From assembly GCA_027062325.1 (NCBI GenBank), contig JAMOTN010000072.1, forward strand, positions 1 through 19,224: 19,224 bases of DNA, given 5' to 3'. The position numbers and the translations under genes were made by a program. The stretch's first letter is position 1; the number at the start of each line of letters is the position of its first letter. Below the pieces are notes generated by a model that was not told the origin of the DNA, searched no databases, and saw only the letters and a list, made by a program, of their open reading frames with translations. The DNA comes from a bacterium (lineage in GTDB: Bacteria > JAMOTN01). Positions 2,845-16,786 of the stretch are shown here, in pieces.

Positions 2845-3642
2845 TTAAAGGATTGATTGAAAAATTAGCTTTAACCAAGCATAGGATGATGGTATAAGGC
2901 GTTTAATACGTTGGGGTTGGTGGATAATTCTCCAGAGCCACTCAGCCCCTTTTTCTTGCCATGATTTGGGAGCTCTTTTTACTTCACCCGCTATTACGTC
3001 AATCGTTCCTCCAACTGCGAGAATAATGGGAAAAAAAATTGGTGACTTAGTGTTTAAAAGGGATTTCACCTCAAAGTTTTTTTTAAGTTTATATGAAAAA
3101 AGCTCTTGTTTAAAAGCTCCCATTCCGCAAATAATGATGAACGGATTTGTGTTATTGAGTTCCCAAACTTTCATAATATTTTCAATTATTTGATTTTCTT
3201 CTTTAGAGTGTGGCTTAAAATAACCGTGGTGATAATATAACACTTTTTTTCCTTTTTCTTGTAGTTTGGATATGGCTTTTATCAGAACTTCTTCCTTTGA
3301 GCCCACTAAAATGAGTTGTGTGTTTGAGAGTTGGATTAGTTTGAAAGTTAAATCTACCCCCGTAGTTCTTTCAGTCGAGTTTAGTATTTTGCTATTCTTA
3401 AAATTTTGTATTAGTTTTAAAAATTTTACAACGGACATACCATCAGGAAGTAGAAAATCTGCATTTGCGTATAGAGAGAATAATTCAGGAATATTCATAA
3501 CTTTTGGAAATGTTGTGAAGTCCACAGAAAAAACACTAACGAATTTTTCTTTACTCTTTTTTATAAGCTTTCTTGCTAATTCATCGGTTTTTCCTGAAAA
3601 CCAGTTTAATTGTTTAAGTTGTGTTAAAAAATTATTTGTCAT
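2845..3642 (-). CDS. WecG/TagA/CpsF family glycosyltransferase
   Basis: A 265-residue protein of typical length for this GT26 family, whose members transfer an N-acetylmannosamine-type sugar onto a lipid-linked acceptor for teichoic acid, enterobacterial common antigen or capsule. Family motifs visible are LLPDG at 64-68 (with the conserved catalytic Asp67), RTTGVDL at 92-98, GMGAFKQE at 173-180, RAP at 223-225, EWLWR at 234-238 and a basic QPQRIKR end. The hydrophobic and basic C-terminus fits membrane association. Its ATG overlaps the stop of the nfeD-like gene (ATGA), so the two are translationally coupled, with AAGGAG just upstream. The exact sugar cannot be told from sequence. It is the last gene of the long leftward operon. 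Confidence 0.9.
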   Translation of the reverse strand: MTNNFLTQLKQLNWFSGKTDELARKLIKKSKEKFVSVFSVDFTTFPKVMNIPELFSLYANADFLLPDGMSVVKFLKLIQNFKNSKILNSTERTTGVDLTFKLIQLSNTQLILVGSKEEVLIKAISKLQEKGKKVLYYHHGYFKPHSKEENQIIENIMKVWELNNTNPFIIICGMGAFKQELFSYKLKKNFEVKSLLNTKSPIFFPIILAVGGTIDVIAGEVKRAPKSWQEKGAEWLWRIIHQPQRIKRLIPSSYAWLKLIFQSIL

Positions 3643-4925
3643 ACCTTACTCCTTAAATTTTCCTTATTTTCTTCATTTAGAGAAGCAATTTTCAACTTTA
3701 AACCTTCTCTTCCAATAACTTTTACTTTATCTCCGGGTTTGAGAGAAGAGGTATCAGATGTTGCTATGGCTTCCCAAAGTGTCCCATCCCAAAAAACTTT
3801 GAGTTTTGGAATAACTTCTTCAACGGTTGCTTCGCCTTTGGCTTCGTAAACTTCTGAGTGTCTTGGACGTGATTTTATTATCAGATACACCATAGTGGCT
3901 ATTGCCAGTGCGAAAAAAATTGCAATTGGTATGAAGAATTTGTAGAGTGAAAAGGAAGCAGGAAGAAGAATAGCTGATCCTATTACAAAAGATATTATTC
4001 CTAGAATTCCAAGTATTCCAAAGCTTGGGATGGACATCTCAGCCACTGCAAAAAACGCTGCTAAGAGTATTAGAGCAACTCCAAAGTAGTTTACAGGAAG
4101 ACTGTTTAGACCGTATAGAGCTACTATTATGCACATTGCTCCCAACGTGCCTGCAATGAGTGAAGGAGTGAAAAATTCGAGGATGAGAAGAAGAGCCCCC
4201 AATGATAGGAGTTGATATGCAATTTCTGGTTTTGCTATCCACATTAGAAATTTTTCAGTGGCTGTTGGAGTGAATTCTACAAGTTTTACTTCGAATCCAA
4301 CAAAATGCTTAGCAACTTCTTCGGGTGAATTTGATATAAACGAGATGAGTTGAGCTTTCAATGCTTCTGTAGCTGTTAGAGTTTTACTATTCCTTATTAG
4401 TTGCCAAAGCAATTCTTCGTCCTCTTTTGTAACTAGTTTTTTTGTTTCCCAAAATGCTTTCAATGTGTTGAATAAAAACTGTTCTGTTTTTTGTTTCAAG
4501 GATTTTTTTAAGTCCTTACCACTGAGTTGGATTGGTGTAATACCGCCTATTATTGTGTGAGGAGCAGCAGATGAGTAGTGGCCTGCAAGAAGCAGTATTA
4601 CTCCTGCTGAAAATGCACTGGCTCCTTCGGGATAAACCATAGTCATTGTTGTAATTTGATCATCACGTAACAATTTGCCGATTTCTACTGCGGATTCTAT
4701 GAGGCCTCCTGGTGTATCAAAAGCAAATAGTAGGTAATTAAAATGTTTTGTCTTTGCATAATTTATTGCTCGCTTTAAAAAATCTGTGAGCGCAGGCGTA
4801 ATAGCTCCAGAGTATTTTACAAATAGCACTCTAACTGTCCCTGAATTGCTTGCTCCAATAGTTTGAATGGGTGATGTTAAAAAGAGTACTATGAGAACAA
4901 GTATAAGCTTACCTGATAACTTCAA
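3639..4925 (-). CDS. nfeD: NfeD-family membrane-bound ClpP-class serine protease
   Basis: A 428-residue protein with a signal or anchor helix (1-24). A ClpP-class protease domain spans about 30-215, with DTPGG at 70-74, likely nucleophile Ser106 in FSAGV, and a lysine (Lys146 is my best candidate) as the general base. Four to five membrane helices follow between about 235 and 350, then a C-terminal NfeD OB-fold (about 364-415, LKPGDKVKVIGREG). This is the full-length NfeD architecture, known from the archaeal PH1510 protease, which cleaves the hydrophobic tail of a stomatin. No stomatin gene lies alongside here. Translation starts at TTG (4923-4925) behind AGGTGAG at 4934-4940. The apparent ATG between the two hits a stop at once. 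It overlaps the upstream Ig-like gene by 17 bp. Confidence 0.9.
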   Translation of the reverse strand: MKLSGKLILVLIVLFLTSPIQTIGASNSGTVRVLFVKYSGAITPALTDFLKRAINYAKTKHFNYLLFAFDTPGGLIESAVEIGKLLRDDQITTMTMVYPEGASAFSAGVILLLAGHYSSAAPHTIIGGITPIQLSGKDLKKSLKQKTEQFLFNTLKAFWETKKLVTKEDEELLWQLIRNSKTLTATEALKAQLISFISNSPEEVAKHFVGFEVKLVEFTPTATEKFLMWIAKPEIAYQLLSLGALLLILEFFTPSLIAGTLGAMCIIVALYGLNSLPVNYFGVALILLAAFFAVAEMSIPSFGILGILGIISFVIGSAILLPASFSLYKFFIPIAIFFALAIATMVYLIIKSRPRHSEVYEAKGEATVEEVIPKLKVFWDGTLWEAIATSDTSSLKPGDKVKVIGREGLKLKIASLNEENKENLRSKV

Positions 4926-6525
4926 ATTCCCATCTCACCTCTTCTTGAAGCCATACGCCATCTTTTGACTTTACAGAGTGGGGAAGAAGCCTTACCATGT
5001 ATTTTCCAGTTTTTAGGGGGAGGAGTGGTTTGAAATACACCCCGTACTTATCAGTTGTGACTTTACCAATTACTGGAGTTATATCAGGTAATTTGTAAAC
5101 TTTGAATTTAACAGCAATGTCCTTACTTGCTTCTATCTCATCTTCGAATATTACTCTTATGGTAGTTGAAGAGAGGACGACTTTTCCAGTTGGATAGTAC
5201 TTCTTGACTTTGGGAGGTGTAGGAGTATTTGATTCCTTTCTAAAATCCTTTGTTTCGGCGTACTCTTCAAGTTTTTTATAACTTTTAGCTAGGACATTTC
5301 GAACAAGAAGTGTAATTTCCGAAGTTGGTGGAAATTTGATGGTTACAGACCTTGTGCCAACTTTTGCTCTTTTCCAACGAATCAATTTATTAGATGCAAT
5401 AAGACGAACAGTAAGCCAGTTTACAGTCGCAGGTAAAATTGGCTCTGTGAATATTACAGTAACGGAGTTTGTGCTCCACTTGACTTCTTGAACTTGGAAT
5501 TTCTTTGGATAGGAGAAGAAGCGCCAGATTTTCTCGGAGAGGTGCCTTCCTGTTAGATCAGTTATATCGCTTGATAATACTAATTTAAAGCTTTTCCCTT
5601 TGATTTCTTTTATGAAAGGAGTAATGTAGAGAATTTGCTTTTCCATGTTATATAGAAGTTTCGAATAAATTGGCTCATTATCTGCGAAAAAGGCTACAGT
5701 AGTTGAATTTAAAGTTTCTGGTTCGACGGGGGCTGAAAAAAGAACTTCTATGGTGGATAGAGAATCAATGTTTGAATTTGGTTTGGGCTTTATTAGTTTT
5801 GCGTCAAATACGGTATTTGAAGCAGAGCGTGATAATAACCAAAAGCTCCAAGAGATAGGTGTACCCAGTTTGTTTCCAGCTTCATCAGCAAGTTTTCCTG
5901 AAACAGTTATGGTGTACATATCGGGAGGTAGAGATGTGAACGGAATAAATTTGAGAGTTAGCTCTTCTGGGATCCAGACTATTTTACCCGGAATACGAAT
6001 ACCTTTTGAATTTTTTAGGGTTATGGCATTTTGATCAAGACTATCTCTAGACAAAGTTTCAGAAAAGACAACTTTTATCTCTGATAAAGAAAGAACTTTA
6101 TCTCCTACTGATGGGAAAGTTTCGAGAACAATTGGAGGAATGGTATCCTGCTTGACTACAGTATAGAAAGAGAAGAAAAATTCCTTTCTAAGTTTCTCAC
6201 CTGTTTCTGCAGTTATGTCCGGTTTTATAATCAGAGTGTATTTTTTGTTTTCCTCAAGAGGAGATATTGGTTTTATAAAAATTTCGTTGGGATCGTTAGG
6301 ATTTTTTGAGACGTTACACTGTATGTAGGTTTCAGGAATTTTTAATGAAAAGTACCAATCGTTTAGATAACTGTCTTTTATTGGTGAATCAAACCTTATC
6401 TTTATTACCACATCGAGTGGAACATTGATTTGACCGTCCTGCGGATAAGTTGAGACGACGCGTAATGCCCAAATGTGGGCTGAAAATAGTAAAATTAAAA
6501 GCAAAATTACTTTACTTCTCTCCAT
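4909..6525 (-). CDS. Exported protein of tandem Big_5-type Ig-like domains (538 aa)
   Basis: The product has a signal peptide (1-20, MERSK then a hydrophobic run ending HIWA). About five Ig-like repeats follow, each roughly 100 residues, starting near 21, 131, 243, 345 and 440. The recurring grammar is that of bacterial Big_5 domains: 'P..G....L..I.V.F...', 'L.F.P...L.....Y...+...+.D..G' and a terminal 'W.F'. The clearest case is DTIPPIVLETFP to SWSF in the second repeat. No membrane anchor, LPXTG motif, lipobox or enzyme motif is visible, so it is probably a rod-like periplasmic or surface protein. The N-terminus resembles that of the larger upstream Ig protein (MERSKV versus MERRKV in the reading frame), and the genes overlap by 19 bp, which suggests duplication and coupled expression. 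Substrate or ligand is unknown. Confidence 0.75.
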   Translation of the reverse strand: MERSKVILLLILLFSAHIWALRVVSTYPQDGQINVPLDVVIKIRFDSPIKDSYLNDWYFSLKIPETYIQCNVSKNPNDPNEIFIKPISPLEENKKYTLIIKPDITAETGEKLRKEFFFSFYTVVKQDTIPPIVLETFPSVGDKVLSLSEIKVVFSETLSRDSLDQNAITLKNSKGIRIPGKIVWIPEELTLKFIPFTSLPPDMYTITVSGKLADEAGNKLGTPISWSFWLLSRSASNTVFDAKLIKPKPNSNIDSLSTIEVLFSAPVEPETLNSTTVAFFADNEPIYSKLLYNMEKQILYITPFIKEIKGKSFKLVLSSDITDLTGRHLSEKIWRFFSYPKKFQVQEVKWSTNSVTVIFTEPILPATVNWLTVRLIASNKLIRWKRAKVGTRSVTIKFPPTSEITLLVRNVLAKSYKKLEEYAETKDFRKESNTPTPPKVKKYYPTGKVVLSSTTIRVIFEDEIEASKDIAVKFKVYKLPDITPVIGKVTTDKYGVYFKPLLPLKTGKYMVRLLPHSVKSKDGVWLQEEVRWEFEVIR

Positions 6526-9500
6526 AGTTTGTATTTCTCACCTGCCCATTTGATTCTGTATTTGAATTTTAATGAATTTACTCTTATGATCGCAGTTTTT
6601 TCGTCGGTTGCTATAATTCTAAACTCGGGGATTTCCTCTGAATCAAGGGAGGTAATGTTTACAGGTTTTAGCTTTTCAAATAGATTTGCGTTATTTGATA
6701 AGAGGTGAACTGTTAAGGATACGGGGAAAGAGTTTTCAGCTGTAGATTTAGAAATCTCAATCTTTTCTATTTTAAAGTTAGGTTCTACTGTTCTGCCAGC
6801 AACTTTTAAATGCGGTAATACGTAATGGCTTTCTGACATTATGGTATCAACAGTTAATACAAAGCTTCCGACATAATCTTCAGGAAGGTGCAGTATTAAA
6901 TTGTTGCCATTTATTTCTATATTTGCATCTTCAACACCTTCTCTTGTTATGAGACGTGCAGATTCAAAGCGTTTGATTTTGTCGTTAAAGGATATTATAA
7001 GTTCTCCACCAATGTCACATTTTCTAGATTTGGGAATTATGGACAAAAGCTTTAATTTTCTCCCAATCCAAACTTGCCATTTGTAGTTTTCTTTTTTGGC
7101 TTTCCTTATCCAAGAAAGTGATATGACATTTTTGCCGGGATTGAATTTTACATCTTCTGCTGTTAACACTTCGTTCCAAAGGTAGAAATCGGTTATTGGT
7201 GAACCATTCACCTTTAGGTGAATATCTCTAGGGGTTTCTCTAAATTTGACGATTATTCGAGATGCACTTTCAACTCTACCCGTTGGATGTAAACTTATAA
7301 TATTTACGGGTTCTATAACATTGAACGAAGCTTTAGCTTCTTTTAATGTTTGGCCATACTTATCCTTGATGTTTTCCATTATTATATTAGCTTCCCCTCC
7401 AAATTTAATCATAGGAAGTTTTATGGAAACTATGGCATAAGATATGTTGATATTTTTCTTATCAACATTTATGTCAAAGTTGTCGGTTTGGACTTTAACA
7501 GAGTCTATTGTTTCTACTGGATTTGAGAATACAAATACTACTTTAGAATACTGGGGAAGCAGTGTTCCTTCTTTAGGGATGACTCTGACCACCTTTAATG
7601 GAGATATGACTGTAAAATGCCAGGATTTAGTGTACTCTTGTCCGCTTTCATTTGTCCATTTCAAAACTATGACGTTATCTCCTTCTAATACCACATCATC
7701 AATGGAGAAGTTAACAGCTTTTCTATTATAGAACTTATATTCTACTCCGTTAACGATGACTTTTAAAGATTTAAATTTACGGGAGAATGCAAACTTTGCT
7801 TGAACGGGTTTAAGAACTTTTCCAACGGGGTAGAAGCTTAGGAGTTTTATAGGAAGCTTTTCATACATTCTGTTTTCTATGACTTTAAAAAATGGGTGCT
7901 GCATCTTTCCACCTGTTGTTGATACTAACCCACTTATGGTTAATTTTACATATTTCGAATATATTGGATTGAGTGGAATTATCTCGATTAGACGTGGATC
8001 TACAAATTGTATATCGCACTTTATTGGTTCGTTTTTATCAGTTGTGAGACGAACGGTTATAGGATTTACACTTTCGGCAATGACAGATGTGGAAAGTTTG
8101 ACAAAGAGTTTTGAGCGTAAAACTTTGGGATATACGGCAATTACTTGTGGAATCTGAGGTGGTTTACGTTTTTTCACCGTGAATGAGTATTTAAAGCCAT
8201 CGAATCTTGATGAATCATATGCTATGAAACCAGCATCTATTGAAATCGTGTATTTACCAGGTTTCTGATCAAATTTTATAGCAATGGTTCTGTCTTCTGG
8301 CTGTTCAACTTTAAATCTGACAAGCTCCGTTTCATTTCTAACCACACTTACGAGTTTTGATACTGCCGATAGAACGACAGGTTTATTAAAAGTTATGTGG
8401 CACTCAAATCCTGGGAATACTTTAGATTCGTTAGTAGGAGAAAATTCAACAACAAATGTTTTTTCAAGTATTTTAAGGAAGTTAAAGCTCCAACTTATAG
8501 CGTGATCTAACATTGTAAAGTCCCTTGCTTGTATTACTGGTTTTATATCTACTCTGTAGCGCCCTTCCTTATAGTCATATGGATAAAATTTTAGGCAATT
8601 CTTTTCTATTACCCATCGTCCGGGGACTTTTAGGCCATTTGCTAACGTAACAGTGGCTGCATCTTTGGGAATGAAAAAGTTAAGGCGTTTGTTGAAGCAA
8701 ATACTTATTGTGAATGAGTTTGCCCGAAGAGTTCCTGTGGGAGAAAAAGCTATAACTTTTAAAGGTGTTTTGTTTTCTACACGCTCAGTTTTCCAGTGGA
8801 ATTTCATGATTTTTAGGTCACCTGTGATTGGTTTGAGATCCAGAAGTAAGGTATAGTCTGTATCTGGAGCTAAAGTTACTAGGGGTTTTATTACAATGGC
8901 AGACAAGCTTTTAACCCAAGTTACTGATAAGGGAACATTTTGGTTCTGGTTTTTCAATTGTACGTATTTATCAAGAGATGTCATAGAAAGTGGTGGCTTG
9001 GAGAGGAATATCATTATTGTTGGTTTTAAGGGAAGGGTTTCTGTAGGTTTAGGAGATACATTTAAAATTCTACCATGCCAAGTTTGTTTGGTTGAGAAAG
9101 ACCAGGAGAAATTATAGCCCATTTTGTTGCCAGCTAGGTCTTTTATCTTATTACCTCGAATGAGGACAGTATAGTTGGAGGAACTTTTGAGGATACCTGT
9201 ATCTAGTATTATAGCTTTATTTTCAACTTTAAAGTTTACTTCTTTAGTGGATTTTGAATTTTCTATGAAAAGTACGGCCCCTTTTTCAGCTTTTATTTTT
9301 TCTGAAAAGATTGCGAAAATTTTTGGGTTTATAGGAATATTTTGAGAATTTGGTGCAGGAGAAGTTTTAATTATTTTTGGAGGAGTTGTATCAAAGAGAG
9401 AGTAATCAAGAATCACACTTTTTTGTAAAAAAGCCCCACTTTTGGATTTAGTCAATCTATTTACTACAACTCGCAGATTGAAGCGGGTTTTACAACGCCA

Positions 9501-10088
9501 CACAATAACTTTCCCATTGATTTTGTATTCTCCTTTTATGCGCTTGTTATTAGAGATGAATATTACTTCTGCAGAACTTAGTGGTTCATCAAATGTAATT
9601 TGTCCGTTGATAATGGGAGATGTTATCTCTTCATAGACAGAAGGATAGTGAGATATCTTTGAAAAGAAATGTTTTGGCAATTTTACAGGAGAAGCTATTT
9701 CTTCAACATAATCTTTCTCTAAAGTATTTCCGTACTCTGAGCGTAAAAGGGCAGAGGAGATTATAAGAGTAAAATTACCAAACATATGCGTTGATGGGAG
9801 TAAAACAACAGTTGTAGGAGAAGATTGGGAAATCCAAAAAGTATAATCGACAGGATTGGCAGTTTCATCTATGAGCATTATTGCTGTTTGTATGCTGGAA
9901 GGATCGGGAGGTTGAGAAAATTTTATAAAAACTTTATCTAATGTTCCGTTGTAATATTTGGGTGTAACTGAAATTACGTAAAATTCGGGTGTAGAAGATA
10001 TAACTTTAGTGTAAAAAATGGACAGTGCAAATATCAATAATAACGGTATAAATGAATTTTTAATTGGCTTCCTGTATCCAACCTTCAC
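6507..10088 (-). CDS. Very long exported or membrane-anchored protein of about 11-12 Ig-like (Big_5-type) domains
   Basis: The frame is open from an ATG at 10106, but that ATG has no ribosome site. GTG at 10086-10088 sits 6 nt behind AGGAGG, so I place the start there (1193 residues). The protein has a basic N-terminus, one hydrophobic segment (about residues 12-31 from the GTG) acting as signal peptide or anchor, then about 1150 residues of repeats near 90-100 residues each. The best preserved begins DTTPPKIIKTSPAPNSQNI, passes through KIKDLAGNKMG and ends FSWSFST. Others (PLKVIAFSPTG, PIKLLSFYPVGK, PVNIISLHPTGR) are more divergent. The 'V..hPtG.v' starts recur in the C-terminal half. It resembles a long fibre or stalk, at about 4 nm per domain if fully extended. 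No catalytic motif, sorting signal or cysteine pairs stand out. It lies between the HEAT gene (gap 23 bp) and its smaller relative. Confidence 0.75.
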   Translation of the reverse strand: MKVGYRKPIKNSFIPLLLIFALSIFYTKVISSTPEFYVISVTPKYYNGTLDKVFIKFSQPPDPSSIQTAIMLIDETANPVDYTFWISQSSPTTVVLLPSTHMFGNFTLIISSALLRSEYGNTLEKDYVEEIASPVKLPKHFFSKISHYPSVYEEITSPIINGQITFDEPLSSAEVIFISNNKRIKGEYKINGKVIVWRCKTRFNLRVVVNRLTKSKSGAFLQKSVILDYSLFDTTPPKIIKTSPAPNSQNIPINPKIFAIFSEKIKAEKGAVLFIENSKSTKEVNFKVENKAIILDTGILKSSSNYTVLIRGNKIKDLAGNKMGYNFSWSFSTKQTWHGRILNVSPKPTETLPLKPTIMIFLSKPPLSMTSLDKYVQLKNQNQNVPLSVTWVKSLSAIVIKPLVTLAPDTDYTLLLDLKPITGDLKIMKFHWKTERVENKTPLKVIAFSPTGTLRANSFTISICFNKRLNFFIPKDAATVTLANGLKVPGRWVIEKNCLKFYPYDYKEGRYRVDIKPVIQARDFTMLDHAISWSFNFLKILEKTFVVEFSPTNESKVFPGFECHITFNKPVVLSAVSKLVSVVRNETELVRFKVEQPEDRTIAIKFDQKPGKYTISIDAGFIAYDSSRFDGFKYSFTVKKRKPPQIPQVIAVYPKVLRSKLFVKLSTSVIAESVNPITVRLTTDKNEPIKCDIQFVDPRLIEIIPLNPIYSKYVKLTISGLVSTTGGKMQHPFFKVIENRMYEKLPIKLLSFYPVGKVLKPVQAKFAFSRKFKSLKVIVNGVEYKFYNRKAVNFSIDDVVLEGDNVIVLKWTNESGQEYTKSWHFTVISPLKVVRVIPKEGTLLPQYSKVVFVFSNPVETIDSVKVQTDNFDINVDKKNINISYAIVSIKLPMIKFGGEANIIMENIKDKYGQTLKEAKASFNVIEPVNIISLHPTGRVESASRIIVKFRETPRDIHLKVNGSPITDFYLWNEVLTAEDVKFNPGKNVISLSWIRKAKKENYKWQVWIGRKLKLLSIIPKSRKCDIGGELIISFNDKIKRFESARLITREGVEDANIEINGNNLILHLPEDYVGSFVLTVDTIMSESHYVLPHLKVAGRTVEPNFKIEKIEISKSTAENSFPVSLTVHLLSNNANLFEKLKPVNITSLDSEEIPEFRIIATDEKTAIIRVNSLKFKYRIKWAGEKYKLWREVK

Positions 10089-10094
10089 AACTTT

Positions 10095-10100
10095 CCTCCT
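10095..10100 (-). promoter_or_regulatory. Ribosome binding site that decides the start of the large Ig-like gene
   Basis: AGGAGG on the minus strand lies 6 nt before GTG at 10086-10088 and inside the coding stretch that would follow the upstream ATG at 10106. No comparable site precedes that ATG, so the GTG is preferred. Confidence 0.6.
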
Positions 10101-10111
10101 CTCCATAAAAG

Positions 10112-12844
10112 TTAGAGATTTTTCATAATCTCTTCTGCTTCGTTTTTAGTTTTTTCTTCTTTTTGAGGAATTGATGTTGGTGCAGAGGCTAATGAACCTC
10201 TCATCTCCATAAGAAGTTTAGTAATAAGTGGTTTTAAATCTGGATATTTGGCTTTCAATTTTTCTAGTTCTTCAACAACTCCTTGACCTACTGTTTCAAG
10301 TATAGCTTCTAAAGTCATTTTGACGAAATCGTCAGACTCCTTCATTGCTAGAAGTACTCCCTCTGTTATTTTAGGTCCCAGTTCGGGAAGTTTTTTATTG
10401 ACTATACCACGCACCAAATTGTTGTTACTGGCAGCTTCCGGGGCAATACGTTTAATAAGCATTGCCACGATTTTACTATCGTTAGTTGTTTTAACAAACT
10501 CGATTGCTTTTTCAAATATTATTTCTTCAGGCCAATTGACAAGAATTTCGTAAATTATCGCTGTAACTTCGGGATCCGAACGATCAGCTAGGTCGAGGAG
10601 AGCTTGTCTCTTGGAAGCACTTTGAGCTGCGATTTTCAGAAGCTCGATTATAAAGTTCCTGTACTTTGGAAATTTCAGGTATGCATCTAGTAGTGTAGCT
10701 AAGAATGAGTTATTTTCTATATCCATTATTGCATGCTTTATACTTTCCGGAATTTCTTTACCATGAAATGAGAGCAAATATTTTAAAACTGATTTCTTAA
10801 GGACTTCGCTTTCTGATATGGAATTCCCCATGGTTTTGAGCAGGTAGGAGGCAACAGCAGTATCTGGCTCAGATAGTAGGGCTTTCATAAGAAGCTGATC
10901 AAATTTAGCAACAGTATCAAAATCTGCAAATAGTAAGGCTTCAGCAGCTTGTTTTCTTATTTCTGTGTTCTCTTTTCTATTGGTGATTATATTTAGTAGG
11001 ACTTTAAATGTTTTGTCAGGAACGTCAGAAGATAAATAATAGCTTAACACTTTGATTGTTAATTTTTTCAACATTAGATCAGTTTGAGGAGATGTAGCAA
11101 GTTCAAATACGACACTTCTTGCGTCAGGTCCAACTTCTGAAAGAATATTAAGGGAATGTTCAACAAGGGGAATTTCTTCAATGTTTTGCTTCTCAGTTTC
11201 CCTGATTTTCTTTACAACATATTCTAAGAGAAGTTTTACAAAGCTTATAGAATTCATACCTGAAAGATTTTTTACAATGATTTCACATTCTTCAGGATCT
11301 CCATTTTCTAAAACATCAACTATTATTCTCAATGCTTCTTCTCCACGAATTTGAGATAAAGCAAGAACTGCTGCTTTTCTCTCCTCTAGATCTTCTGAGT
11401 CCAAAAGAAGGGAAATTTCAGTTATTGCTTCACTTCCAAATCTATTTAGAACATTTCCAGCCCAATAATGTATGTCCGGATTATTTTCTAAGAAAGCCAT
11501 GATTAAAGGCTTTATAACTTTTTTTCCCATGGAAAATAGAATATCTGCTGCTTTTGCTCTGAGCCCCCATTTGGGGTCTTTAAACCTAGATATGAGGATG
11601 GGAATTACTTCGTCAGTTTTAATATTTGAAATTGCAGTTAAAGCGTAATATCTTATTCTTTCATTATCATCTTCCAAGGCTTTACTGAGATAATTTATAG
11701 CATCTTTTCCAAGCTTACTTAAGGCTTGGAGTGACCAGTAGACCATATCTTCATCGGCACTTTGAAGTTGCTCAACTAATAAATTAAAAGCTTTCTCACG
11801 CTTGAGAATCAAAAGAGTTGCTGCACGTTCACGGATTGTCCAGATTTTATCTTTAAAGGCCTTTATCATAAGCTTTAGACTTTCGGGGGAGTCAATTTCG
11901 CTAACAGCTTCAAGAGCGAATAAGCGCATATCTGGATCTTGGGAGTTCATAAGTTTTGCAAGTGTTGGCAGAATTTTTTCTTTGTTTCTTGCAGCAAGAA
12001 CTTTTAGCCCCCAGTATTTGGCTTCAGATGAGGCTTTTGTGTTGGAGAAAATTTCTTTAATTACTCCATCCACTTCAGGGCTATTTGTAAATTTTAAAAT
12101 GTCAGCTGCCAGTCTTCTTATCAACCATGAGTCTTCGTCGAAAGCTTTAACAAGAGTTTTAATTGCTTCAAGAGATTTTATCTCTCCAAGTGCAACTATT
12201 GCCCACATTTTTTTATTATTGTCTTTTGAAGCTAAAAGGGCTTTGGCAACAGGAAGAAAATTTTCTTTTTTGAAACGAGCAAGAAGCTTTAGTGACCAAA
12301 ATGCTATATTTTCATCTCCGAGATCGCTCAAATTTTGCTTGAAGGCTTTTTCAAGATAGGGAATAGCCTTTTGAGCGAAGTTTTCTTCAATGATTTGAGC
12401 TGCTGTTTGTCTTACTGTCCAAACTTCATCTCCCAGAGCTTTTATTACTGTGGTTAGAGCTACCGGGGACATGTGATTTCCAATTGCTCTTATTATGTGT
12501 TCACGTATCTTATAATCTTTTTCTTTGTTGTATAAGTTGGCAAGTTCTTGCGTAGCTTCTGGGGATTTAATATCCCCCAATGTTCTTATTGACCAGTACC
12601 TGAGGTCTTCATTATGATCTTTTGCCAAACCTGCTTTTAGATATGCAACTGCTGCTTTACCAAATTTGGAAGTGATTATTTCACTTGCTGTTTTTCTAGC
12701 AATCCACATGGGGTGTTTGAATACTAAAATCAGATTTGGGATGGCAATTTCCGGTTTAAAGTTAGCCAGTTCTTTAACTCCTTCTAAAACGACTTCTTTT
12801 TCTTCGCTGTTTAATTTCTTTTTTACAATGCTCAGCGACCCCAT
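10112..12844 (-). CDS. 910-residue cytoplasmic HEAT-repeat solenoid protein
   Basis: The product has no signal peptide or membrane helix. It is built almost wholly of paired amphipathic helices with the HEAT / PBS-lyase-like grammar ('R..A...L..i....a...L...l.d'). The first 520 residues show a higher-order period: five units of 91-98 residues, each with W..R, then (Y/F)W, then an R..AL-type motif. The later half has more divergent HEAT-like helices. The tail (about 885-910) is polar and charged with Lys and Glu (PQKEEKTKNEAEEIMKNL). HEAT solenoids act as protein-binding scaffolds; no enzymatic residues are evident, and lyase activity of the phycobilin type is unlikely. The ATG follows GAGGG after about 7 nt. 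It sits 12 bp after the GspC/PilP-like gene, suggesting a cytoplasmic scaffold for the envelope proteins of the same operon (inference). Confidence 0.85.
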   Translation of the reverse strand: MGSLSIVKKKLNSEEKEVVLEGVKELANFKPEIAIPNLILVFKHPMWIARKTASEIITSKFGKAAVAYLKAGLAKDHNEDLRYWSIRTLGDIKSPEATQELANLYNKEKDYKIREHIIRAIGNHMSPVALTTVIKALGDEVWTVRQTAAQIIEENFAQKAIPYLEKAFKQNLSDLGDENIAFWSLKLLARFKKENFLPVAKALLASKDNNKKMWAIVALGEIKSLEAIKTLVKAFDEDSWLIRRLAADILKFTNSPEVDGVIKEIFSNTKASSEAKYWGLKVLAARNKEKILPTLAKLMNSQDPDMRLFALEAVSEIDSPESLKLMIKAFKDKIWTIRERAATLLILKREKAFNLLVEQLQSADEDMVYWSLQALSKLGKDAINYLSKALEDDNERIRYYALTAISNIKTDEVIPILISRFKDPKWGLRAKAADILFSMGKKVIKPLIMAFLENNPDIHYWAGNVLNRFGSEAITEISLLLDSEDLEERKAAVLALSQIRGEEALRIIVDVLENGDPEECEIIVKNLSGMNSISFVKLLLEYVVKKIRETEKQNIEEIPLVEHSLNILSEVGPDARSVVFELATSPQTDLMLKKLTIKVLSYYLSSDVPDKTFKVLLNIITNRKENTEIRKQAAEALLFADFDTVAKFDQLLMKALLSEPDTAVASYLLKTMGNSISESEVLKKSVLKYLLSFHGKEIPESIKHAIMDIENNSFLATLLDAYLKFPKYRNFIIELLKIAAQSASKRQALLDLADRSDPEVTAIIYEILVNWPEEIIFEKAIEFVKTTNDSKIVAMLIKRIAPEAASNNNLVRGIVNKKLPELGPKITEGVLLAMKESDDFVKMTLEAILETVGQGVVEELEKLKAKYPDLKPLITKLLMEMRGSLASAPTSIPQKEEKTKNEAEEIMKNL
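11285..12718 (-). repeat. Five tandem three-HEAT super-repeats within the solenoid gene
   Basis: Residues about 43-520 contain five units. The first-helix tryptophans (W..R context) fall at 47, 142, 240, 335 and 426, and the second tryptophans ((Y/F)W context) at 84, 183, 278, 370 and 461. Each unit ends with a third HEAT repeat, often with an AF.D/RFKD-type junction. The even spacing (91-99 residues) implies duplication of a three-repeat block rather than of single HEAT repeats. Confidence 0.75.
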
Positions 12845-12856
12845 TTTTATCCCTCG

Positions 12857-13408
12857 CTATCTTTTAGTTCTCTCCTCTTTTTCCTTTTTTCTACGTTCTT
12901 CCTTAGCGACTTCTTTTTTACTTTCAACAGCTTCTTTGATAATATCTTCGACAAATTTTCCAATGTATTCTTCAGAAAATTCGTACTTATATGGAAATTT
13001 ACTTTTCTTCAGAGTTAACAAGTTGCCAAAACCGTCTTGGAGAACAATTGCATTATCTTTTATTGTTTTGAGACGCCAAAAAGTTCCAATTTTGTCTCCA
13101 GGAAAAAACGTTTCTACTTTTCCACTTGCTGCATCTTTTAAAACTACACTAACAGCGCTATAGGGAGTTTTGACAATTTCTAAAATCCAGAACTTCTGCC
13201 AAGGTTTGAGTCCAACTTCAGGAGTAGGAACAATTATTCTTAATTTAGGGACAAGTTTTGTTTCGTGAGTAGGTTTTTGTGTTTGAAGACTTTCATCTTC
13301 AGCTAGAAGATCCACTAAGCTTTGATGGTCTTCGGCTTTTATCAAGGTGGAGAAGAGAAGAGTAAATAAAATAAACGCTAAACACTTTAAATGTGCTGTT
13401 TTTGCCAA
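12857..13408 (-). CDS. Secreted GspC/PilP-like periplasmic protein
   Basis: A 183-residue product with a signal peptide (1-25, ending LIKA|EDHQ) and a flexible acidic/Pro-rich linker (about 30-65). A small beta domain follows at about 83-135 (VVLKDAASGKVETFFPGDKIG ... IVLQDGFGNLLTLKK). The 'pGD.I....+..I..n.ivl.d..G....L' pattern resembles the homology region of type II secretion GspC and type IV pilus PilP, which links inner-membrane assembly parts to the secretin. It ends in a highly charged Lys/Glu tail (about 155-183). No lipobox is seen, although Cys9 lies in the leader. The start is TTG (13406-13408), 8 nt after GGGAGG at 13417-13422. It is the first gene of the leftward operon. The domain match is by pattern only; pilin and secretin genes are not in the window. 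Confidence 0.55.
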   Translation of the reverse strand: MAKTAHLKCLAFILFTLLFSTLIKAEDHQSLVDLLAEDESLQTQKPTHETKLVPKLRIIVPTPEVGLKPWQKFWILEIVKTPYSAVSVVLKDAASGKVETFFPGDKIGTFWRLKTIKDNAIVLQDGFGNLLTLKKSKFPYKYEFSEEYIGKFVEDIIKEAVESKKEVAKEERRKKEKEERTKR

Positions 13409-13449
13409 ATATATTACCTCCCTTTAGCGAACTAGTCAGCTTAATTTAG

Positions 13450-13458
13450 TGTTATAAT
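13450..13458 (+). promoter_or_regulatory. Extended -10 promoter for the rightward HTH-TPR operon
   Basis: TGTTATAAT is a full consensus extended -10 (TGn + TATAAT), which can work without a good -35; none is evident at the right distance. Transcription would begin near 13465, about 60-70 nt before the HTH gene. Confidence 0.55.
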
Positions 13459-13465
13459 TATAACA
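13457..13465 (-). promoter_or_regulatory. Extended -10 promoter for the long leftward operon
   Basis: The minus strand also reads TGTTATAAT here, sharing bases 13457-13458 with the opposite -10. Transcription would begin near 13450, leaving about 40 nt before the TTG start at 13408 with its GGGAGG site. Confidence 0.55.
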
Positions 13466-13537
13466 TCAAAATCTAACAATATAGAACAATTGAGGCAAGC
13501 AGCTTAGTAGTGGTTTTAGTTAGGAGTGAAACGTTTA

Positions 13538-14011
13538 ATGTTAAGAAGTTCTAGGGTTTTCTTTGCAATGTTTCAGTTTATGGCTTTCTATAGCGTTGAA
13601 GATTTGGTTAGTTTGACGGGAACTTCTAAAGTTACAATTTACAAGCAGCTTTCTAACTTGAAGGAGATGGGGTTACTTTTACAGAAATCCTCGCTCTATC
13701 TGCCTAATTATTACAGATCAAGTTGTGTGAAATTTAAGCTGGCACTAGATTTGTTGTTTTTAGAGGAGAGTTCTCAAAGTTTGAAAACAAAAAGTGTTGC
13801 TGAGAGAGAAGGATATTCAAGAGTAGAGGTTATTGCCTCGTCTGTTTTGCCTTTTGAGAGGGAAGAAAATGTAAAAAAAGGGTTTGATTCTGTCAATAAG
13901 TATCATATTACTGTTTCTGAGATACTCCAAATAAGGGAAAAATTGCCCATTGATTTGAGGGAGGTTATTGATTACAGGTTAGAATTTTTGAAAAAATTAT
14001 ACAAACGATAG
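13538..14011 (+). CDS. Small winged-helix-like HTH protein, probable transcriptional regulator
   Basis: The product (157 residues from ATG 13538) has an N-terminal helix-turn-helix: helix, SVEDLVSLTGTSKVTIYKQL (recognition helix around TIYKQL), then NLKEMGLLLQK and a short strand pair (SSLYLPNYY) that fits a wing. This is the MarR/ArsR/IclR-like 'sense type, read as one unit' arrangement. The C-terminal 90 residues, charged and mostly helical, match no family I recognise. The frame also has GTG at 13526, but GGAG at 13523-13526 overlaps that codon and would serve the ATG (11-nt spacing), so I prefer the ATG; the choice is not firm. It lies immediately downstream of the palindromic divergent promoter, which suggests autoregulation and control of the leftward operon. 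Confidence 0.65.
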   Translation: MLRSSRVFFAMFQFMAFYSVEDLVSLTGTSKVTIYKQLSNLKEMGLLLQKSSLYLPNYYRSSCVKFKLALDLLFLEESSQSLKTKSVAEREGYSRVEVIASSVLPFEREENVKKGFDSVNKYHITVSEILQIREKLPIDLREVIDYRLEFLKKLYKR

Positions 14012-14023
14012 TGTGGGAGTGAT

Positions 14024-16354
14024 GTGGTTGTGAATTTTAAAGAAGTTGCTGTTTTAAAAATGTTGAATAAAAAACAGATTGAAAAATTATGGGAGACAAA
14101 AGAGTTAAAACTCGATTACAAGGTGCCGTGGCGTAACTGTTGGTATTTGACTTTTAAAAAAGGAAGAGAGTTTTACCTTGGGCGTATAAACTACTTGAAG
14201 GTTGAAATAAAAAAAAGGGAGGATGATAAGTTTCCTTATTTAGAGGCTGCTTGGATATTGAAAATAAATGAACCGGTTAAGCTTGAAATATCCAAGTTTT
14301 CCAAGTTTTTTGAAGAGCTTTCTGACATAGAGTATCTTTCTTTTGAAGAGATGTTGAAAAAGGAGAAGGAAAAGGAACGTAAGATGTCTGATGAAGAAAA
14401 GAAAATGTTGATAAGTCGCTATATGGAGCGTATAACAATTGCTTCTGCAAAAGGGAATTTAAATGAAGCTTTTTGGAGCGCGGATAGGTTAATGGATTTT
14501 ACCTCTTCATCTGCTCTTGCAAGCTTTTACTATGGTATGGTGTTGGAGGCTATGGGAAGATTAGAAGAGGCTATATGCCACTTTTTAAGAGTGATAGAGG
14601 AAGATAAGAGAGCTTTATTGGCTTATGTTCACCTGGGATTTTGCTTGGAAAGAAGAGAGATGGTTGATGTAGCAACAAAGTTTTACAAAGAGGCTTTAAA
14701 GCTTGCTCCAGATTCGGAGCTTGTTAAGTTTCACCTTGGAAAGGCACTGCTTGAGTTGAAAAGGTATGAGGAAGCTGCTAAATACTTGGAAGAGATAGTA
14801 AGCAGTGGAGCAAAGAATGTGGAGATTTTAAATCTTTTAGCTGTGGCTTATGCCTTTAGCAGGCAGGTTGAGAAAGCTTATAAAATTTGGAAGGATATTG
14901 TGGATAGTGGAAAAGCTACTCCAGCTGTTATTTTCAATTATGCAAAAGCTTGTTTAAATATTGGTAAGATTGCTGAGGGGTTACGATACCTTGAAAGTTT
15001 AAGAGAAGAAGTAGAGGATCCAAATTTCCGTGCGATGGTCGAAGCAGTTATAAAGGAGATAAGTGAGAGTGAGGGGATGAAAAATGCTAAGGGATTGGCT
15101 GACTACTTTGAGGGCAAGTTTGGTGTAAGGGTTGAGGGACTCACAGAAGAGGTTAGAAAGCATGTGGATATTGCAGAGTTGGAGAAATTCTTGGAAAAGT
15201 ATGATTGGGATGATTATGACTTGAAAGTTATACGTTTTGAACCTGAGGAGTCGGATAAGGATTACGAAGTTGAAAATAAAGTTTTGTCTATATACAAGCA
15301 GGTATGGGTGCGTTCCAAAAAGTTTGGGCGTAAATTGTCAAATGTATTGAAAAAAGGCATAGAAAAAACACGAGTTGAGGTAAAGGATATGGGGAAGGAT
15401 ACACCAGTTGTCATAGATAGGCGTGATTATACGCAGATGAGTGAAGAAGATTTTAAGCAGATATATGAAGAGCTTATGGAAATGATTTCAGAAGATCCAG
15501 AAAATGCATGGTATTACTATCATTTGTCGAGAATCCTTGATATGAACGGGCGAGAGAAAGAGGCCTTTGAATTTATAAATAAAGCTGTAGAATTGGAGCC
15601 AGATAACCCCATGTTTTTATACTATAAAGCGCTGTTTTTAGAAAGGCGTGGGGAGCTGAAAGAAGCTTTAGAGTTGCTTCAGAGAGCACTTATAGTGGAC
15701 GTGGATTCGGAGTTGGAAAGAATTTTCGAAGAGATTGGTTTTAAGAAGTCAGACATATACTTTGCTATGGGAAATATTTTGGTAAGGATGGATAGGATAG
15801 AAGAGGCTGTATCAGTTTTGAAAAGAGGACTGGAGATGGATCCCAAAAATCCCATTGCTCACTTTCAATTGGGAGCTTGTCTTGAAATTTTGAAGCGTTA
15901 CGATGAAGCAAAACAACACCTTATAAATTCAATAGCCATAGATCCGCAATTTGCTTATTCTTACATAAAATTGGGATTGGTTTACTACAGGCAGAAATTG
16001 TATGAGGAGGCGATACTGAACTTTGAAAAAGGACTTGCGCTTGCACCTTACATTACAGAAGGGTTGTACTGGTTAGGAGAATTGTATTATGAACTTGGAA
16101 ATAAAGAGTTGGCGTGGCAACTGTGGACTGCAATTTTGAACAATTCCACTCCAGAGGATCAGTTTTGGAAACTTGCCAAGATGAGAATTGAGGAGTTGGA
16201 GGGAAAAGCTGGACCTGAAGGTGAAGGAGATGTGGGTAATAATAGCGGTGGTAAAGGCAAAAAAGGGGCAACTAAAAAATCTGCTTCTAAGAAAAAAAGA
16301 GATGAAAATTTAAAAGATAGTGATAAAGAAAGTGGAGACAATGAAAAGAAGTAG
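14024..16354 (+). CDS. 776-residue cytoplasmic TPR protein with two repeat blocks
   Basis: The N-terminal domain (about 1-110) is of unrecognised type (PWRNCWYLTFKKGREFYLGR). A charged Lys/Glu helix (about 108-128) follows. The first tetratricopeptide block spans about 135-345 (for example LEAMGRLEEAICHFLRVIEED, LELKRYEEAAKYLEEIV). A linker of about 140 residues with a basic patch (RSKKFGRK) comes next, then a second TPR block at about 475-725 (LKRGLEMDPKNPIAHFQLG, YRQKLYEEAILNFEKG). The tail (730-776) is low complexity, Gly/Ser/Lys-rich, and ends acidic. No signal peptide or membrane helix is seen. TPR proteins bind partners; this one probably scaffolds a complex with its neighbours. A GTG start (14024) follows GGGAG at 14015-14019 after 4 nt; the in-frame GTG at 14030 (10 nt) is an alternative. 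It begins 12 bp after the HTH gene. Confidence 0.85.
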   Translation: MVVNFKEVAVLKMLNKKQIEKLWETKELKLDYKVPWRNCWYLTFKKGREFYLGRINYLKVEIKKREDDKFPYLEAAWILKINEPVKLEISKFSKFFEELSDIEYLSFEEMLKKEKEKERKMSDEEKKMLISRYMERITIASAKGNLNEAFWSADRLMDFTSSSALASFYYGMVLEAMGRLEEAICHFLRVIEEDKRALLAYVHLGFCLERREMVDVATKFYKEALKLAPDSELVKFHLGKALLELKRYEEAAKYLEEIVSSGAKNVEILNLLAVAYAFSRQVEKAYKIWKDIVDSGKATPAVIFNYAKACLNIGKIAEGLRYLESLREEVEDPNFRAMVEAVIKEISESEGMKNAKGLADYFEGKFGVRVEGLTEEVRKHVDIAELEKFLEKYDWDDYDLKVIRFEPEESDKDYEVENKVLSIYKQVWVRSKKFGRKLSNVLKKGIEKTRVEVKDMGKDTPVVIDRRDYTQMSEEDFKQIYEELMEMISEDPENAWYYYHLSRILDMNGREKEAFEFINKAVELEPDNPMFLYYKALFLERRGELKEALELLQRALIVDVDSELERIFEEIGFKKSDIYFAMGNILVRMDRIEEAVSVLKRGLEMDPKNPIAHFQLGACLEILKRYDEAKQHLINSIAIDPQFAYSYIKLGLVYYRQKLYEEAILNFEKGLALAPYITEGLYWLGELYYELGNKELAWQLWTAILNNSTPEDQFWKLAKMRIEELEGKAGPEGEGDVGNNSGGKGKKGATKKSASKKKRDENLKDSDKESGDNEKK

Positions 16355-16387
16355 TTAAATTAAAGAATGTCTTGAGGGACTTTAGTT

Positions 16388-16786
16388 ATGAAAAGAGTCA
16401 AATTTGACAGAATAAAAGGGATCAAGCATTATATTAAGCTTGTTATTTTGTCTTTGTTTGGAGGTTTTGTTTTTGCTGTGTTTTCAAGTTTTCTGGTTGG
16501 AGGGCTATTTGTAGTTGCAGGTAAAGTATTTTTAAAAGGAGTTTGGTATGGAGCGGTTGGGACTGCACTGCTATTGTTATTTGCAGGAGTTATGTACTCT
16601 GCAAATTTTGTGATGCCCGCAGAAGTTTGGAAAGTTGAGGATTGGAAGTACCGAATGGATGAGTATTACGATTATCTATTCTTGGTTAGGGAACGTAATC
16701 TAAAATGGTCAGTTGTTTTTATAACTTCTGGGGTAGGGGCTGCTTTGTTTTTTGCAATTATTGATTGGTACCTAAAAATTCATTGA
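16388..16786 (+). CDS. Small three-helix inner-membrane protein of unknown function
   Basis: A 132-residue product with a basic N-terminus (MKRVKFDRIKGIKHYIK) and three hydrophobic segments at about 16-45, 52-72 and 107-127. A polar, aromatic and acidic loop (about 78-106, WKVEDWKYRMDEYYDYLF) separates the second and third. I do not recognise a family. The positive-inside rule places the N-terminus in the cytoplasm. GAGGGA lies about 10 nt before the ATG. It follows the TPR gene after 33 bp and probably ends that operon, so it may anchor the TPR protein at the membrane (inference). It is convergent with nfi; the 56-bp gap holds no clear terminator. Confidence 0.65.
   Translation: MKRVKFDRIKGIKHYIKLVILSLFGGFVFAVFSSFLVGGLFVVAGKVFLKGVWYGAVGTALLLLFAGVMYSANFVMPAEVWKVEDWKYRMDEYYDYLFLVRERNLKWSVVFITSGVGAALFFAIIDWYLKIH

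Follow-up and report, generated by a model that had tools for sequence, protein, structure and literature searches.

Two divergent gene runs joining familiar envelope protein families in an unusual combination in an uncultured bacterium

Nine genes arranged in two divergent runs occupy most of the window, by which we mean the entire contig analysed (C72, 19,224 bp), from a 1.65-Mb draft genome of 81 contigs that is 84% complete. The layout is real, the parts are familiar and their combination is unusual; no system is demonstrated. In the reading that we prefer, to which we give an even chance, the six genes on the minus strand make up one co-transcribed operon for exported and envelope proteins and the three on the plus strand a separate small operon, with a promoter gap shared by both. 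This reading is based on the overlaps and narrow gaps between genes of the same strand and the domain matches of their products, on the palindrome in the gap and the signal-like N-termini of the HR-like protein and both Big_5 proteins, and on the match of the HR-like protein in another genome (G010), the three secretins of the genome and the split between NfeD and slipin.

Results

Gene layout and the divergent gap

Open frames for all nine genes named in the earlier note were found at the positions given there or within a short distance of them, so that the divergent two-operon layout with tight gaps and overlaps that it described is borne out. Reading from the gap, the minus strand carries the genes of an HR-like protein (12857-13408), a HEAT protein (10112-12844), two Ig/Big_5 proteins (6507-10106 and 4909-6525), an NfeD1b protease (3639-4925) and a WecG glycosyltransferase (2845-3642), the junctions being, in this order, gaps of 12 and 5 bp followed by overlaps of 19, 17 and 4 bp. 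Read likewise from the gap, the plus strand carries the genes of an HTH protein (13526-14011), a TPR protein (14024-16354) and a three-helix membrane protein (16388-16786), separated by 12 and 33 bp.

The minus-strand run stops at the WecG gene, facing a pair formed by an SLH-porin and a degenerate GGDEF protein. The partial or degenerate GGDEF gene (1929-2837) is convergent with the minus-strand operon, its end being 8 bp away from the stop codon of WecG, and the porin-like protein (348-1883) has one weak SLH domain. Two more SLH proteins are encoded in the genome, on contigs C3 and C6, and these SLH proteins suggest an outer membrane tethered via SLH domains. At the other flank, the minus strand continues with the genes of EndoV, DivIC and RsmH.

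Between the two runs lies an intergenic region of 117 bp (13409-13525) that contains a perfect 16-bp palindrome, TGTTATAATTATAACA (13450-13465). On either strand it reads TGnTATAAT, an extended -10 element, so it could correspond to two face-to-face extended -10 boxes, to an operator for the HTH protein, or to both. The shared promoter region proposed earlier thus finds a counterpart in this gap, in which the palindrome can be taken as two opposed extended -10 boxes. When gaps were randomised at equal length and dinucleotide content, such a palindrome arose by chance in about 0.6% of cases (P ~0.006), and the exact copy is present once in the genome. An operator or a pair of face-to-face promoters is possible from this pattern, and the palindrome is the sole positive evidence for shared regulation of the two operons; the HTH protein would probably act here as a local regulator. 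Scans of the sequence for sigma-70 promoters and for terminators gave results no better than those from shuffled sequence. A regulon defined by the palindrome was considered and rejected, with just three other sites carrying two mismatches in the genome and one for the control pattern. The window has two 16-bp palindromes in total, both intergenic; the second perfect one, ATTGTCATATGACAAT (182-197), is situated upstream of the gene at 348 that encodes the SLH-porin.

The plus-strand genes

The first product of the plus-strand run, of 161 aa, gave weak matches to several winged-helix and HTH models (E 0.003-0.06), every one of them below the cut-off. The HTH regulator that had been proposed corresponds to this weak resemblance (E ~0.003 at best), and a role as local regulator is possible. 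The second, of 776 aa with a charged C-terminal tail, is a TPR protein (TPR_2 E=1.9e-43, together with other TPR models). The third, of 132 aa, has three hydrophobic segments in its sequence, in agreement with the membrane protein described before, and did not match any Pfam or NCBIfam model above cut-off.

The HEAT protein and its relatives in the genome

The second minus-strand gene encodes a HEAT-repeat solenoid of 910 aa (PF13646, HEAT_2, E=1.2e-61), so that Pfam supports both the giant HEAT protein and the large TPR protein of the earlier note. Its N-terminus is not signal-like, from which we infer that the protein is cytoplasmic, where it might serve as a general binding scaffold. At least eight other HEAT loci exist in the same genome (contigs C2, C42, C44, C3, C22, C45 and C10). 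Where their neighbours were read, these were a ClpX-like AAA protein (C2), fliP-fliQ-fliR-flhB-flhA (C42), central-metabolism and transport genes (C44) and a PEP-utilising enzyme (C3), and no Big_5, NfeD or WecG gene was found beside the HEAT genes of these four contigs. Matches to TPR_16 were obtained for around 18 open frames of the genome. Since HEAT and TPR genes are so numerous, the presence of either near another gene is weak evidence. One of the HEAT loci (L080:6023-9605) encodes two adjoining HEAT proteins, divergent from the flagellar fliP-fliQ-fliR-flhB-flhA genes that neighbour them.

A small protein with an HR-like domain

The gene next to the gap on the minus strand encodes a small protein of 183 aa with a signal-like N-terminus, an HR-like beta domain of the PilP/GspC kind at about residues 72-147 and a charged helical tail. 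No match to it was found in Pfam, NCBIfam or the PDB sequences. When it was compared with 290 genomes, it gave four matches outside its own genome with E no higher than 0.01, a number near chance expectation. One of them, weak (E=0.002 for a single genome, with 290 searched), is a 137-aa gene of G010 located between PilO and secretin genes, that is, at the PilP position of a pilMNOPQ cluster, and it is unlikely that the protein should hit a gene in this position by chance. The remaining weak matches, to histidine kinases of G250 and G112 and to an ATPase-like protein of G005, were rejected as chance.

GspC HR and PilP have in common a small beta-sandwich fold (PMC3169554). The 183-aa protein resembles them in its short domain, predicted to be beta-rich and periplasmic, and in a PGD...I..(V/I).L..G pattern, and differs from them in that its gene lies outside any pilus or secretion operon, in having no curated family match and in its long charged helical tail. 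Single-sequence AlphaFold models were of low confidence (pLDDT 53 for the full-length protein and 58 for the domain alone), and the domain model, at this low confidence, was all-beta in the HR-like region, where an HR domain would have a sandwich of six or seven strands. Foldseek and VIA-align searches with this model listed unrelated beta proteins (E >0.01, Z <4), with PilP and GspC unlisted; the fold model is too weak, so these searches count neither for nor against PilP/GspC. The previous assignment as GspC/PilP-like draws on the weak G010 match, Pfam, NCBIfam and PDB giving none, and it is plausible, not proven.

Three secretins are encoded in the genome, one in a pilM-N-O-P-Q-like cluster on C23, one in a GspE/GspF/secretin cluster on C29 and a third on C20. 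The HR-like protein would be periplasmic and, by analogy with PilP and GspC, could touch the N0 domain of a secretin. A second protein of the genome, on C17, also matches it weakly and shares its domain; this other orphan HR-like protein (L160:6666-7478) has a long Pro/Thr/Ser tail and adjoins a nadD-like gene and a UDP-glucose dehydrogenase gene.

Two adjoining exported Big_5 proteins

Both exported Ig-domain proteins announced in the earlier note were found to carry Big_5 domains (PF13205), the one given there as about 1190 residues having 1199 in its longest frame. The 538-aa protein has a signal-like N-terminus and four scored Big_5 stretches (E=6.5e-41, 139.8 bits against a cut-off of 23.6), and the 1199-aa protein has likewise a signal-like N-terminus, with three scored stretches (E=1.4e-30, 106.5 bits, same cut-off). 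Residues 1-545 of the longer protein align with residues 1-538 of the shorter one at around 22% identity (E=1e-4). The two genes adjoin, and no other protein of the genome matches Big_5 as strongly as their products do. As in the SbsA-type surface proteins with Big_5 domains, tandem Ig-like domains follow a signal-like N-terminus in both; in contrast to those, no SLH domain, sortase signal or other anchor was seen in either. They would be exported Ig-like rods. Elsewhere in the genome, a giant extracellular-type protein of more than 3000 aa (L084:2973-12146) that runs past the end of its stretch has NPCBM_assoc, Big and FlgD_ig domains.

An NfeD1b protease apart from slipin

The NfeD protease named earlier is a membrane protease of the NfeD1b type (428 aa), with a ClpP-like N domain, a membrane domain and an OB C-domain, a call sustained by three Pfam domains (PF25145, 49 bits with a cut-off of 40; PF24961, 65 with 26; PF01957, 34 with 29). 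It matches the structure of the PH1510 protease with E=7e-13. Its catalytic Ser106 is aligned in all 14 homologues compared, and Lys146 fits the catalytic position when aligned by hand, MAFFT placing a four-residue insertion beside it. Compared with the 14 homologues, the GRN motif is lost and GAAHPV has become GGITPI, with A-H-P changed. The enzyme has diverged but probably still works as a protease.

NfeD1b is present in 188 of 290 genomes. Its neighbourhood was examined in 20 distant genomes, 18 of which could be resolved, and in 13 of these 18 it adjoins a slipin (EYERxVxFRLGR motif); no other protein of the cluster was matched near NfeD1b in any of the 18. The window contains no SPFH gene, the SPFH genes of the genome being on C21 and C79, and the slipin of the genome is that on C21, apart from NfeD. 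This slipin gene (L139:2523-3347) has no NfeD gene with it and is downstream of an HPr-like gene and a large glycosidase-like gene. NfeD1b has been described as paired with SPFH1b/slipin, and SPFH genes without a neighbouring NfeD have been noted too (PMC2636767). With respect to the NfeD1b-SPFH1b operon of Pyrococcus (PH1510-PH1511), the window protein has the same three parts and keeps the catalytic serine, whereas it has Big_5 and WecG genes as neighbours instead of an adjoining slipin, and its GRN and A-H-P motifs are changed. It may represent a membrane protease uncoupled from its usual slipin gene.

A WecG glycosyltransferase

The last gene of the run encodes a 265-aa protein with a full-length match to PF03808 (E=4.7e-37, 127.8 bits against a cut-off of 27.4, profile positions 1-167 of 168), which confirms the WecG/TagA/CpsF glycosyltransferase of the earlier note, and with a match to a solved TagA (7mpk, E=1.6e-19). 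It is the single match in its genome. Like TagA of Thermoanaerobacter italicus it has the PDG and C-terminal motifs, but it scores below the named-equivalog cut-offs and its gene is not among glycan genes. It would add the second sugar, of the ManNAc type, to a glycan carried on undecaprenyl, on the inner side of the membrane. WecG and NfeD genes never adjoin among the matches listed, the nearest pair being around 18.5 kb apart (G046).

Discussion

In order to place the cluster among related genomes, its phylum was searched, which yielded one genome, the window's own; the 98 genomes drawn as relatives were all from other families, with a kinship to the source genome no closer than the domain. 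Two scans of genome contigs returned no HEAT relative, only distant RsmH loci, and the viral contigs searched with Big_5 and TPR gave no match. Around the Big_5 and WecG relatives of other phyla, the rest of the cluster was absent from the 1.5-kb flanks read. No open-access paper was found that combines three or more of NfeD, WecG, HEAT repeat and Ig-like proteins.

These comparisons are in line with an ordinary juxtaposition, in which functionally unrelated genes are packed into neighbouring operons of a small genome that abounds in HEAT, TPR and Ig proteins, and NfeD and WecG keep to their usual pathways, their partners being elsewhere. Operons of functionally unrelated genes are common, the HEAT and TPR genes of this genome are numerous, a slipin is available on C21, and no conserved partnership appeared in any other phylum sampled. 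Nevertheless, of the six minus-strand proteins five either begin with a signal-like N-terminus or work at the membrane, a closer theme than random genes would show, and the consecutive overlaps and near-touching junctions suggest selected co-expression, so that we consider juxtaposition somewhat improbable.

The earlier note had gone further and joined the nine genes into a single, possibly undescribed system for envelope assembly, made up of a cytoplasmic scaffold (HEAT and TPR), a membrane link, a surface fibre of Ig rods, a protease and a glycan. The envelope part of this proposal fits the minus-strand genes. The compact divergent layout with a palindrome in common also speaks for a single system, as do the adjoining position of the two strongest Big_5 proteins and the location of NfeD in this operon, away from its usual slipin partner and with changed active-site surroundings. 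Against it, the other HEAT genes are in unrelated company where read, beside ClpX-like AAA, flagellar export or PEP-utilising enzyme genes and not beside Big_5, TPR genes are common in the genome, and the flanks read around distant NfeD, Big_5 and WecG genes are devoid of other cluster genes. One system would here be inferred from the neighbourhood, without comparative support, and we regard it as unlikely for the nine genes. With a single genome for the phylum a lineage-specific system would look identical, so this reading keeps some weight, and the absence in other phyla leaves the claim unproven, not refuted.

The boldest version, a lineage-specific module in which the slipin-free NfeD1b would process or quality-control the two Ig-rod proteins, exported via a secretin with which the orphan PilP/GspC-like protein makes contact, while scaffolds of the HEAT and TPR kinds lie at the membrane, appears very doubtful.

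As things stand, and with two operons around a shared promoter gap as the preferred reading, the locus illustrates how lineages without sequenced relatives, in which inference from gene neighbourhood fails, recombine known envelope families. A real module would mean that an uncultured, deep-branching lineage of diderms has a surface-assembly route not built on the known fibre or S-layer systems, and that NfeD1b proteases work without a neighbouring slipin.
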